Assembly: GCA_030651815.1 (NCBI GenBank)
Contig: JAUSBW010000216.1
Location: 1-62,409, forward strand
Length of the DNA stretch: 62,409 bases
Direction: 5' to 3'
From: Methanoregula sp.
GTDB taxonomy: Archaea; Halobacteriota; Methanomicrobia; Methanomicrobiales; Methanospirillaceae
Part shown: in pieces, positions 2 to 5,385 of the stretch
Numbering within the stretch: position 1 is the first letter of the stretch
Layout of the letters: each line of letters starts with the position of its first letter
Translations under genes and position numbers: made by a program
The notes under the pieces: generated by a model
Told to the model about the DNA's origin: nothing
Seen by the model: only the letters and a program-made list of their open reading frames with translations
Database searches by the model: none

Positions 2-631
2 GTTTTAGGAAGAGATGCATGGAAGCCATATGATGTCGTTAAGTGTTCGGGGCATCAGCTTGATCTCCTTCATGTGAATAGATGGTTGGAAAGAGCGGAA
101 ATTAAATACGATATAGAACCACGGAGTCTCTTAACCTCTCAACCAGCAAAATTCTCAAAAACAGATAGACCTCCTGAAAAGATTATCGAGTTTGTTGATG
201 GGATTCGTTCTATTCTTAAACGGGCGATTGAGTATACGGAAAATGATCCACCACCCTCTATGAATGAGCGTATAAAAGCATGTAAAGGGTTCCAGGGAGA
301 GATAACTGCATTCCTTGATAGAGAATGGGATGATGTGGATGCTACCCGAATAACCAAAGAACTTCGAAAGCGGCAGGATATGCTGTTTACGTTCATGCAA
401 TACGAGGATGTTCCATGGCACAATAATGACGCAGAACGGGCAATACGTCAGGGTGTACTTCACCGTAAAATTAGCGGTGGTCGAAGAACATGGGTCGGAG
501 CAGATATATTTGGGGTGCTTTTGAGTATTTACGAAACTTCGAAGAAAAAAAAGCAGAAATTTATGGAAATAGTGGGAGAAAAACTAGGGTTTTCATCGAA
601 TGAGAAGAGTGCAAACAACTCAACTTCCTAA
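2..631 (+). CDS. IS66-family transposase, C-terminal part (cut by window start)
   Basis: The frame is open from the first bases of the window, so the gene is cut by the window edge and only its last ~209 residues are visible. The end of the protein carries the IS66 signature: WHNNDAERAIRQGV followed by RKISGGRRTW and a conserved helix, which corresponds to the C-terminal part of the DDE_Tnp_IS66 catalytic domain and contains the last acidic catalytic residue (E in NDAERAIR). The frame runs to a normal stop with no internal break, so this copy could be intact outside the window. The family assignment is firm; activity cannot be judged from this piece. Confidence 0.88.
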   Translation, partial: VLGRDAWKPYDVVKCSGHQLDLLHVNRWLERAEIKYDIEPRSLLTSQPAKFSKTDRPPEKIIEFVDGIRSILKRAIEYTENDPPPSMNERIKACKGFQGEITAFLDREWDDVDATRITKELRKRQDMLFTFMQYEDVPWHNNDAERAIRQGVLHRKISGGRRTWVGADIFGVLLSIYETSKKKKQKFMEIVGEKLGFSSNEKSANNSTS

Positions 632-658
632 AAGTGAGTTGTTACTAACTTTTTTTTA
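614..658 (+). terminator. Hairpin plus T-run at the end of the IS66 gene
   Basis: A perfect 9-bp inverted repeat (AACAACTCA / TGAGTTGTT) spans the transposase stop codon and is followed within a few bases by a run of eight T. It lies between two convergent genes and looks like a transcription terminator for the transposase. It could also belong to the end of the IS element. Confidence 0.6.
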
Positions 659-1285
659 CTTTCCGAAACGGCGTATCCGCGACTGGTAGTCCCGCAATAT
701 CCTCAAAAAATCCACTTTCCGGAAATATTTCCAGTTCACATCGGAAAAGAAGAGCTCGGAGTAGACCGATTGCCAGATGAGGAAATCGGTGAGGTGATCC
801 CCGCCACTCTTGATCACCACATCGGGCGTGTATTTGAACGTCAGGTAGGATTCGAGGAGTTTCTCGTCCACATCTTCAGGAGAGATGTGAGCCTCAGCCA
901 TTCTCCTGATGCAGGCAGTGATCTCTTCCCTGCCGCTCTTTCCTATCGCCACTACCACATCCATTCCCTCGCCGATCACCTCTTCTTTGTCTCCCACATG
1001 AAGGATCAGGCGGGCGATGGTACCGATCTTCCTAATCTCCGATAAGCATTTTTTCATATCATCAGGAGATGGAGTTGCGATATGGAACGTAAGACCAAGA
1101 ATCACCGGCTGGGCGGGGGCATTGTGCTTTGCGACAAACGCAGATATCTCATTGCACCATGCAGTAGCCCGGTAGAGCTTATCCGGTGAATCTGCCATAT
1201 CCCTGCCGCTGATCATGAAACAGACATGACCCGGCAAGATCGTGATCTGCCGTTTGAGCATGTGCTCATAAAGCCAGTATATCAT
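656..1285 (-). CDS. Degenerate cis-prenyltransferase (undecaprenyl diphosphate synthase family)
   Basis: 209 residues, shorter than the usual 230-260 of UppS proteins. The C-terminal half is recognisably UppS: DVVIKSGGDHLTDFLIWQSV matches the family DxxIRTSGE-x-RxSNFLxWQ segment, followed by YSELFFSD and a terminal RFG. The N-terminal catalytic motif (normally H-x4-MDGNxRWA) is replaced by HVCFMISGRDMA, so the catalytic Asp is gone, and the RTSGE arginine is Lys. Cis-prenyltransferases make long polyprenyl phosphates that carry glycans in the membrane. Loss of the active-site loop with retention of the C-terminal RxG resembles the non-catalytic (NgBR/Nus1-type) subunit of heteromeric enzymes, which is an inference. 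The ATG start follows an AGGA directly upstream. Confidence 0.72.
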   Translation of the reverse strand: MIYWLYEHMLKRQITILPGHVCFMISGRDMADSPDKLYRATAWCNEISAFVAKHNAPAQPVILGLTFHIATPSPDDMKKCLSEIRKIGTIARLILHVGDKEEVIGEGMDVVVAIGKSGREEITACIRRMAEAHISPEDVDEKLLESYLTFKYTPDVVIKSGGDHLTDFLIWQSVYSELFFSDVNWKYFRKVDFLRILRDYQSRIRRFGK

Positions 1286-3517: not shown

Positions 3518-4225
3518 ATGTACTCTTATAAGACGGGGATCGAGCAGATCGATCAGTTGTCCGGAGGGTTTGAGGCAGGGACCAATATCCTCATCCTTGC
3601 ACCTCCTATGAGCTATGCCGATCAGCTTGCCTATGCCCTGACAAAACCCGTTACGGGTGAATATGCCATAATACTCTCCACCAACGAACGGGCAGCAGAG
3701 GTGGTGGATTTTTTCAAAGTCGCGGGATCGGACAAGCGGTTTATCGGGGTTATTGATGCTATCACCAAGAGCTCAACCCCAAGCATTGTCGATACCCCAA
3801 GACTCAAGTTTGTCTCAAGCCCTACCGATCTCACTGGGATAGGGATCAAATTTTCCAATATTATCGAGGCCATTTTTGAGGGTGAATTTTCTGATGGTGA
3901 AGCCGGTCTCTTCCCGCCCCCGATCCGGTTCTGCGTGAATTCCGTCTCCACCCTGCTCATGTACCGCAAACTCGAGGTGCTGTACCAGTTCCTTCATGTG
4001 CTCACCGCGAAATTAAAAAAGATCGAGGGTGTGGGCATCTACATCTTAAACAGCGAATCATTCGATGACAAGACATTGTCCTTAATCAAACAGCTGATGA
4101 ACTGTGTTATAGAAATTAAGATCGATCAGGACATCAGCTACCTGCGTATCCAGGGTATTCGAGGGATCAATTCGAACTGGCAGAAATTTTCTGTCAATAA
4201 AGGGCAGGTGACCATACTACCATGA
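3518..4225 (+). CDS. RecA/KaiC-like protein with degenerate P-loop
   Basis: 235 residues starting TGIEQIDQLSGGFEAGTNILI, the typical entry of KaiC/RadA-like RecA-fold proteins (TGI..LD.LLGGG...G). Where the Walker A GxxxxGKS should follow, the sequence is APPMSYADQL, with no Gly-Lys-Ser/Thr, so ATP binding is doubtful. A later hydrophobic strand (IRFCVNSVSTLL) sits where Walker B would be. It starts 11 bp after feoB and its TGA overlaps the ATG of the next gene (ATGA at 4222), so it is cotranslated with the RecA-GTPase fusion. Exact function is unknown; a regulatory or scaffold subunit is plausible. Confidence 0.72.
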   Translation: MYSYKTGIEQIDQLSGGFEAGTNILILAPPMSYADQLAYALTKPVTGEYAIILSTNERAAEVVDFFKVAGSDKRFIGVIDAITKSSTPSIVDTPRLKFVSSPTDLTGIGIKFSNIIEAIFEGEFSDGEAGLFPPPIRFCVNSVSTLLMYRKLEVLYQFLHVLTAKLKKIEGVGIYILNSESFDDKTLSLIKQLMNCVIEIKIDQDISYLRIQGIRGINSNWQKFSVNKGQVTILP

Positions 4226-5385
4226 TCTCCACCGGTATGAACAGTGTAGATGACATGCTGGGAGGTGGAATTCCACAAGGCGGCCGGGTGCTGTACAGCA
4301 TGGAACCGGGGGTCAATGGCCAGCTCTTCATGGTCTCATCGCTGTGCCGTGCCCTTGCACAGAATCTCTCCTGCCTTGTGATCCTGCCCGGTACTACCGT
4401 TGAGGCATACCGTCACGATCTCCTTACAATGAAGACAGGTTTTATCGATTTATCCTCAGATAAGATCGTTTTTATCGATGCCATTGACCGTGAGCGGATC
4501 CAGAAGAGTTCCCCCGGCCCCGATTCGGCACAGCTGGAGTGGAAAGCACGAATCGCAAAGGTTTGCGGTGAGAGAAAGATCGATGTCATCTTTGCCTATT
4601 TTGATCTCCTGTCCGAGGAGTTCGGGATCGAGTGCGGGCTTGATATTCTGGAGCAGGGAGACGACGTTTTGAAGCCGACCCTGATCCTCGAACATCTCAA
4701 TCTCGAAGGGGAACCGCTTATCTCCCGGTTTATCCATGATTTTTCATTCGATGTAGTGATCTCTATAAAATCTTCATTCAAGCCTTTGCCGCATTTCGAT
4801 TATTTTACCCTTGTTCACACCCCAGGATCTCCTCAACCGGTGCGGTCCGTGCCATTCGTTACCGCAGAAGGCAGGATCATCCCGTACATACCAAGGATTG
4901 TAGTAACCGGGCCAGCACAGTCCGGAAAATCCACGTTTGTGACCAGCGCATCCATTGAGGGGATGCCGGTAGACCGGGTGGGACTTGACGGGGATCTGAC
5001 AACCGAATCAATGGATCTTGGGATGCTGCAATCGAAGGGCTTTGATATCACCATCTACGGGACTCCCGGGCAGCCACGGTTCGATCTGCTGATTCCGGGA
5101 ATGCTCAAACACACGATGGGAGTAATCCTGATGGTGGATGCTACAAAACCCCAGTTACTTCCCCAGGCAAAAGAGATGATCGGTCTGCTTGCCGAACACA
5201 GTGTGCCGATGGTTATTGCCGCAAATAAAAATGATCTGCCCGGCACGATGGAGGAAAAAGATATCCGGGCGGCACTGGGGATTAAGGCCGATATTCCGAT
5301 CTTTTTTATATCGGCAACCCGGAAAGACGATGTCCGGCATGTTGTCGAATCTCTCGTGAACTCCATCACGCAGATTCCGTATTGA
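4222..5385 (+). CDS. RecA/KaiC-like domain fused to a small GTPase domain
   Basis: 387 residues with two parts. Residues 1 to ~220 repeat the KaiC-like entry (STGMNSVDDMLGGGIPQGG) but again have a degenerate Walker A (SMEPGVNGQL). Residues ~228-387 form a Ras-like G domain: G1 GPAQSGKS, G3 region YGTPGQPRF, G4 ANKNDLPG and a final SATRKDD segment like the G5 SA(K) motif. The TPGQ form resembles MglA/Srp-receptor-beta-like prokaryotic small GTPases. The G domain looks intact while the RecA-like part does not, so GTP is probably the working nucleotide. It is coupled to the preceding RecA-like gene by an ATGA overlap. Function is unknown; a switch protein is an inference. Confidence 0.78.
   Translation: MISTGMNSVDDMLGGGIPQGGRVLYSMEPGVNGQLFMVSSLCRALAQNLSCLVILPGTTVEAYRHDLLTMKTGFIDLSSDKIVFIDAIDRERIQKSSPGPDSAQLEWKARIAKVCGERKIDVIFAYFDLLSEEFGIECGLDILEQGDDVLKPTLILEHLNLEGEPLISRFIHDFSFDVVISIKSSFKPLPHFDYFTLVHTPGSPQPVRSVPFVTAEGRIIPYIPRIVVTGPAQSGKSTFVTSASIEGMPVDRVGLDGDLTTESMDLGMLQSKGFDITIYGTPGQPRFDLLIPGMLKHTMGVILMVDATKPQLLPQAKEMIGLLAEHSVPMVIAANKNDLPGTMEEKDIRAALGIKADIPIFFISATRKDDVRHVVESLVNSITQIPY

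Follow-up and report, generated by a model that had tools for sequence, protein, structure and literature searches.

KaiC-like proteins have been proposed as hubs of archaeal signaling, and pairs of MglA and Roadblock proteins are relatives of the small-GTPase systems of eukaryotes. Inactivated KaiC domains (iKaiC) have already been described in archaeal signaling (PMC5847659), and RecA folds that lack the Walker A consensus make up the hetero-hexameric platform ELP456 of Arabidopsis (PMC11050213). Among the MglA GTPases, groups 2-5 have in common a GTPGQ motif and a threonine that replaces the G2 arginine, and group 4 was placed in methanogenic Euryarchaeota by Wuichet and Soegaard-Andersen (PMC4316618). 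Here, we describe two overlapping genes, A and B, in a stretch of 62,409 nt of Methanoregula sp. (assembly GCA_030651815.1, contig JAUSBW010000216.1, positions 1-62,409 of the forward strand; hereafter, the window). The reading that we prefer, and to which we give about an even chance, is that they belong to an archaeal signaling module in which a KaiC-like hetero-oligomer displays an MglA-type GTPase switch that is under the control of a Roadblock protein.

An overlapping gene pair

The features of the gene pair are collected in Table 1. ORF A starts 11 bases 3' of feoB, and dph5 and a DUF357 gene lie downstream of the pair. The tetranucleotide ATGA at 4222-4225 is common to the stop of ORF A and the start of ORF B. 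This overlap, to which the earlier note had drawn attention, is a conserved feature: ORF A lies 5' of ORF B in all 23 Methanomicrobiales loci, 22 of which keep the four-base overlap. Compared with the 80%-identical relative L052, dN/dS was about 0.08 for ORF A (0.030/0.376) and 0.21 for ORF B (0.117/0.570), and the G domain of B taken by itself (dN 0.128, dS 0.732) is likewise under purifying selection. Conservation and dN/dS together rule out chance ORFs or a pseudogene. A single fused A-B chain was also considered and rejected, because we read the 476-aa A frame of L023 as the ordinary protein preceded by a long stretch of additional upstream sequence.

Table 1. Coordinates of the A-B gene pair, its domains, and its motifs in the window
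Feature	Position	Strand	Basis or conservation
ORF A: KaiC/RecA-like, DUF7504 family, 235 aa	3518..4225	+	PF24336, AF2, VIA-align
Walker A position in A: APPMSYADQ, without GK[ST]	3599..3625	+	Sequence and alignment
ORF B: KaiC-like domain fused to MglA/Arf-like GTPase, 387 aa	4222..5385	+	Pfam, AF2 model
B N-terminal KaiC-like domain, residues 1-223	4222..4890	+	VIA-align to KaiC 2gbl; PF06745 in relatives
Walker A position in B: EPGVNGQLF (PGV-x-G-x-x-F-like), without GK[ST]	4303..4329	+	Alignment
B C-terminal G domain, residues 224-387	4891..5382	+	Pfam Arf 2e-9; phmmer; VIA-align
G1 GPAQSGKS	4909..4932	+	GxxxxGK[ST] in 113/114 rows; other row cut off
G2 threonine pair TT, residues 260-261	4999..5004	+	106/114 rows
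G3 GTPGQ, MglA group 2-5 motif	5059..5073	+	106/114 rows
G4 NKND	5224..5235	+	NKxD in 104/114 rows
G5 SA	5311..5316	+	Sequence

Elsewhere in the window, a cis-prenyltransferase-like ORF (656-1285, minus strand) matches only the C-terminal half of PF01255 (residues 106-208 against profile positions 113-219), and relatives of similar length occur in 12 of the 80 loci kept from the genome scan (among the matches listed). The protein may be a subunit without catalytic function, comparable to NgBR. The edge of the window carries a fragment of an IS66-type transposase (74-628, plus strand; PF03050, profile 195-282).

Distribution and phylogeny

By a count of the search rows, 38 of the 150 genomes examined from the order carry the full-length fusion; within the genus of the window, 8 of the 12 sampled genomes have it and 4 do not. 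In a sample of 294 genomes of the phylum, 72 matched at 1e-20; by our count of the rows, 52 of them have frames long enough for the fusion and the other 20 have a stand-alone GTPase only. In a further scan, of genome contigs, at least 527 of 582 stretches were confirmed, and 80 were kept as loci. Among the matches listed, these are 23 Methanomicrobiales loci and 57 others, and they include ANME-2, Methanoperedens, Archaeoglobaceae, Alkanophaga, Methanocellales, and Thermoplasmata as well as Methanomassiliicoccales, Methanobacteriaceae, Altiarchaeota, and several MAGs of DPANN archaea; errors in MAG binning could explain single rows of this distribution. The fusion is thus neither unique to the genome of the window nor a one-off; many lineages of archaea, DPANN among them, have conserved it. 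In a tree of 79 B proteins, from which L062 and L068 were left out as partial, Methanomicrobiales, Archaeoglobaceae, and other lineages formed supported clades, with long-branch warnings; the tree mostly follows the lineages.

Two KaiC-like folds without a Walker A motif

ORF A is a member of the DUF7504 family (PF24336, 90.4 bits against a cut-off of 27) and also matches DUF7090 (PF23365); its score against KaiC (PF06745) was 18.6 bits, below the cut-off of 26.6, and a sequence search of solved structures returned no match to it. The AF2 model of A (pLDDT 88.3, pTM 0.88) has a KaiC fold and was closest to KaiC-like ATPases by VIA-align, with PH0284 (2dr3) at Z 22.9 and rmsd 2.5 over 212 residues. 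For B (pLDDT 83.7, pTM 0.79, residues 247-262 under 50), the best 50 Foldseek matches of the whole protein were KaiC chains only, and because those alignments ran over both domains, VIA-align was chosen for comparing the parts. The model of residues 1-223 has a KaiC fold as well (2gbl, Z 22.0, rmsd 2.5, 208 residues). By sequence, this part matched the archaeal KaiC-like protein 2w0m among solved structures and reached 17.0 bits against PF06745, below the cut-off of 26.6; the same profile scored above it in the B proteins of relatives L074 (72.4 bits), L114 (79.5 bits), L082, and L089. The profiles of A and of the N-terminal part of B matched each other weakly (hhalign probability 16%, E 0.0015).

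Motif conservation was followed in an alignment of 114 rows, comprising 34 members from the order and the 80 loci kept after scanning the contigs (among the matches listed), which are not all independent because some genomes occur in both sets. As the earlier note stated, both KaiC-like folds in the window lack a Walker A motif. In the KaiC-like domain of B this holds generally, since none of the 114 rows has one, and the idea that the P-loop of B is a functional variant was rejected on this ground. The site mostly reads P-G/E-x-x-G-x-x-F, with P-G in 92 rows, P-E in 17, and Phe in 109 of 114. Four matches to a looser pattern (L053, L062, L068, and L115) we attribute to an upstream GIPxGSK stretch, which is seen in the rows of L068 and L115.

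In A, the P-loop is graded. Among 103 untruncated rows, 9 have the full motif, 31 have GxxxxGK[DE], 5 are otherwise GK-like, and 58 have none. Seven of the nine full motifs belong to Archaeoglobaceae and the remaining two (L101 and L123) are weak A matches; the half form is found in Methanosarcinales and Methanoperedens, and Methanomicrobiales have none. As read from the alignment, the loss in A would be recent relative to that in B. The scaffold of inactive folds described in the earlier note is therefore not supported as the general state of the module: with a P-loop in A that Archaeoglobaceae have in full, Methanosarcinales in half, and Methanomicrobiales not at all, the doubly inactive form is better regarded as derived. 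Comparing lineages along this graded loss amounts to a natural experiment in the role of ATP.

The genome of the window has two more DUF7504-like ORFs, at 828-1379 of contig C206 (L138) and 777-1178 of contig C194 (L139), which scored 57 and 43 bits, respectively, against the A profile. One of them lies directly 3' of an ORF that we took, by eye, to be a PAS-like sensor.

An MglA-type GTPase domain with a complete set of motifs

Residues 225-383 of B match Pfam Arf (37.6 bits, cut-off 22.3, 2e-9), Ras, and related GTPases. By phmmer, the G domain matched MglA (3t12) at 2e-5, and Arf/Rab proteins also match; by VIA-align, residues 220-386 resemble Arf1 (Z 20.4, rmsd 2.1, 152 residues) and Arl3 (Z 20.3). 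The G domain of B has a complete set of motifs (G1, TT, GTPGQ, NKND, and SA). Its G3, called G3-like in the earlier note, is GTPGQ, the known motif of MglA groups 2-5 (PMC4316618). Window B has G1, the G2 threonine, and GTPGQ in place of DxxGQ, as those groups do, and departs from a single-domain small GTPase in its fusion to a KaiC-like domain. The G3 aspartate (DxxG) of the Arf/Rup type is absent from window B, which has TPGQ. The adjacent FeoB was rejected as a source of the G domain, since G3 is of the MglA kind and the matches of window B did not include FeoB_N.

In the genome of the window, no intact MglA-like GTPase other than B was found. The second match, at 4274-4708 of contig C72 (L137), is a degenerate remnant of an MglA-like GTPase with internal stops in the matching stretch; it adjoins a gene that we recognized by eye as presumably elongation factor 2-like.

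Some close relatives deviate from these motifs. G3 Gln or G4 residues are lost in members of the genus of the window, with TPGC and NRKD in L003, IPGQ without NKxD in L005, and IPGG without NKxD in L009 and L010; G3 is also altered in L004 (TPGE) and L012 (TPGK). Such losses, along with that of the P-loop of A in this order, speak for a G domain that is being inactivated in this lineage, so that A-B would be a static scaffold, with a nucleotide pocket that does no more than stabilize the fold. We consider this unlikely: window B retains all five motifs, G1 and GTPGQ persist in 113 and 106 of the 114 rows, and the comparison with L052 shows purifying selection on the G domain.

A probable Roadblock/LC7 partner

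The preferred reading of a regulated GTPase switch draws on a neighboring gene. Among the matches listed, a Roadblock/LC7 (MglB-family) gene is present in 55 of the 57 loci outside Methanomicrobiales, lying directly 3' of B in 49, just 5' in 5, and elsewhere in the locus in 1. In the two loci where it was not found, the DNA ends 454 bases after B (L109) or begins 75 bases before B (L120). An A match is present in 48 of these 57 loci and in 71 of all 80, and 41 of the 57 have the order A-B-Roadblock (again among the matches listed). The identity of the Roadblock proteins rests on PF03259 for one member, L130 (2.1e-15), and on our own profile for the rest. In Methanomicrobiales, by contrast, no Roadblock gene lies near the module in any of the 23 loci.

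The genome of the window (G000) has a single PF03259 match, on contig C277, unlinked to A-B. It scored 68 bits against the profile of the module Roadblock, whereas in every one of the 55 loci the top-scoring Roadblock reached 107 bits or more. This gene overlaps a REC-MetOD2 response regulator gene by one base, and a second REC-MetOD2 gene adjoins. In 8 of 10 other loci compared (L155-L160, L162, and L163; not L164 and L165), a Roadblock gene lies beside a relative of the first REC-MetOD2. The stretch with both regulators and Roadblock (L136, 6896-8655, minus strand) is an arrangement that recurs in several Methanomicrobiales. These genes adjoin others that, judged by their sequence, are presumably RNA polymerase genes. 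According to PMC5847659, MetOD2 occurs exclusively in Methanocellales and Methanomicrobiales.

Co-occurrence was also seen in family f6, where all 8 genomes sampled from genus g17 have Roadblock and 7 of them have B, and genus g24 lacks both (0/24 each). The pattern fits a partnership of B and Roadblock, though it may reflect one evolutionary event. Many genomes of the order without B still keep Roadblock proteins, often with stand-alone GTPases.

In Archaeoglobaceae (L082, L085, L095, L100, L103, L111, and L113), a cluster of V4R-domain proteins (tested on L100) is found 3' of Roadblock. The V4R protein is a possible candidate for a sensor of the module.

Proposed mechanism and alternatives

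In the mechanism that we propose, B would act as an MglA/Arf-type GTPase carried on a KaiC fold without an ATP site, and A would be a second KaiC-like subunit. The KaiC folds of A and B probably come together in a mixed ring or dimer to which several G domains would be tethered, an assembly suggested by the conserved gene overlap and by the fold common to both proteins. The Roadblock/LC7 protein would set the GTP/GDP state of B, and the GTP form would recruit or release a downstream partner. A may add ATP sensing in most lineages; in Methanomicrobiales this input would have been lost, with the GTPase as the remaining switch. Because Roadblock overlaps the REC-MetOD2 gene in the genome of the window, a two-component input could enter there. 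Several observations count against this mechanism: the weak match between the profiles of A and the N-terminal part of B, the unlinked and lower-scoring Roadblock in the genome of the window, the G3 and G4 residues lost within its genus, the 4 of 12 sampled genomes of that genus that have no fusion, and the many genomes of the order that keep Roadblock without B. A bolder generalization, which we offer tentatively and regard as rather doubtful, is that A-B-Roadblock is an ancient archaeal hub, a KaiC-type hetero-ring carrying a multivalent Ras/Arf-type switch that joins KaiC signaling, MglA/MglB switching, and, in methanogens, two-component input, and that went from an ATP-sensing ring in some lineages to a pure GTP switch in others.

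The module might instead position type IV pili or the archaellum, or set polarity, as an archaeal equivalent of MglA/MglB in which the KaiC partner would be ArlH-like. In bacteria, polarity and pili are under the control of MglA (PMC4316618); pilus loci of archaea often contain Roadblock proteins of arCOG02603 and KaiC proteins (PMC4858521); and A resembles FlaH/ArlH (4yds). Among the minority of neighbors that were annotated, however, no pilus or archaellum gene was recognized, and we hold this role to be quite unlikely.

A GTPase platform linked to translation or the ribosome, as Elp456 is the RecA-fold platform for Elongator, seems to us decidedly improbable. It can draw on dph5 and DUF357, which adjoin the module in the window, and on weak matches to Elp4 (PAXNEB, PF05625), although these remained below the cut-off of 28 (26.3 bits for the A homologue of L126 and 12.2 for window B). 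Genes that we took to be YhbY, S19e, and PDCD5, 3' of the module in Methanoperedens and ANME-2 loci, would count in the same direction. However, the neighbors change between lineages while A-B-Roadblock stays together, and the G domain is MglA-like, not that of a translational GTPase. An iron-linked regulator acting on FeoAB is very improbable. The proximity of feoB in the window could be cited for it, as could a protein cluster whose length and position suggest FeoB and which lies in 17 of the 80 loci (among the matches listed). In the loci compared, however, the FeoB link was found only in Methanomicrobiales, Methanocalculus L067 lacks it, and in other lineages the module adjoins other genes.

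Comparison with known systems

A Roadblock-controlled GTPase switch on a KaiC-like scaffold is the reading with which we compare described systems. A search of the literature found no description of a KaiC-MglA GTPase fusion and none of DUF7504; the KaiC survey by Makarova, Galperin and Koonin (2017) was outside its scope, and a prior mention there is possible. For the combination, which the earlier note did not recognize as a described architecture, no paper was found, but iKaiC and the MglA group 2-5 motif had already been described (PMC5847659 and PMC4316618). The module looks like a conserved archaeal signaling module for which we found no earlier study, and the conserved fusion, with an adjacent Roadblock in most lineages, gives KaiC-type folds a concrete output that can be put to the test, and gives the Ras-like GTPases of archaea a concrete scaffold.

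B is like MglA groups 2-5 with MglB/Roadblock (PMC4316618) in its GTPGQ G3, the TT in G2, and intact G1 and G4; an adjacent Roadblock gene is a further likeness in most lineages, though in none of the 23 Methanomicrobiales loci. Those GTPases are single-domain proteins, whereas in B the GTPase is joined to a KaiC fold, with another KaiC-like protein, A, as its companion. The iKaiC proteins (DUF835, MEDS) of archaeal signaling share with the module a KaiC fold with a degenerate ATP site, and the A homologue of L095 matches DUF835 (3.3e-7). They differ in that the partner here is a Ras/Arf-type GTPase, which the accessible part of PMC5847659 does not mention for iKaiC. Within Pfam, A is a clear member of DUF7504 (PF24336; compare DUF7090, PF23365), a family without assigned function, and B is not a member. 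Elongator Elp456 is a precedent for a RecA-fold platform without the Walker A consensus (PMC11050213) but has no GTPase fusion. Bacterial MglA-MglB-RomR is alike in combining Roadblock, a response regulator, and an MglA-type GTPase, and differs in that its GTPase is not on a KaiC scaffold, while the archaeal regulator has a MetOD2 output domain. Inactivated KaiC domains and MglA/Roadblock are thus each known, and what is new, as far as the literature search reached, is their combination.
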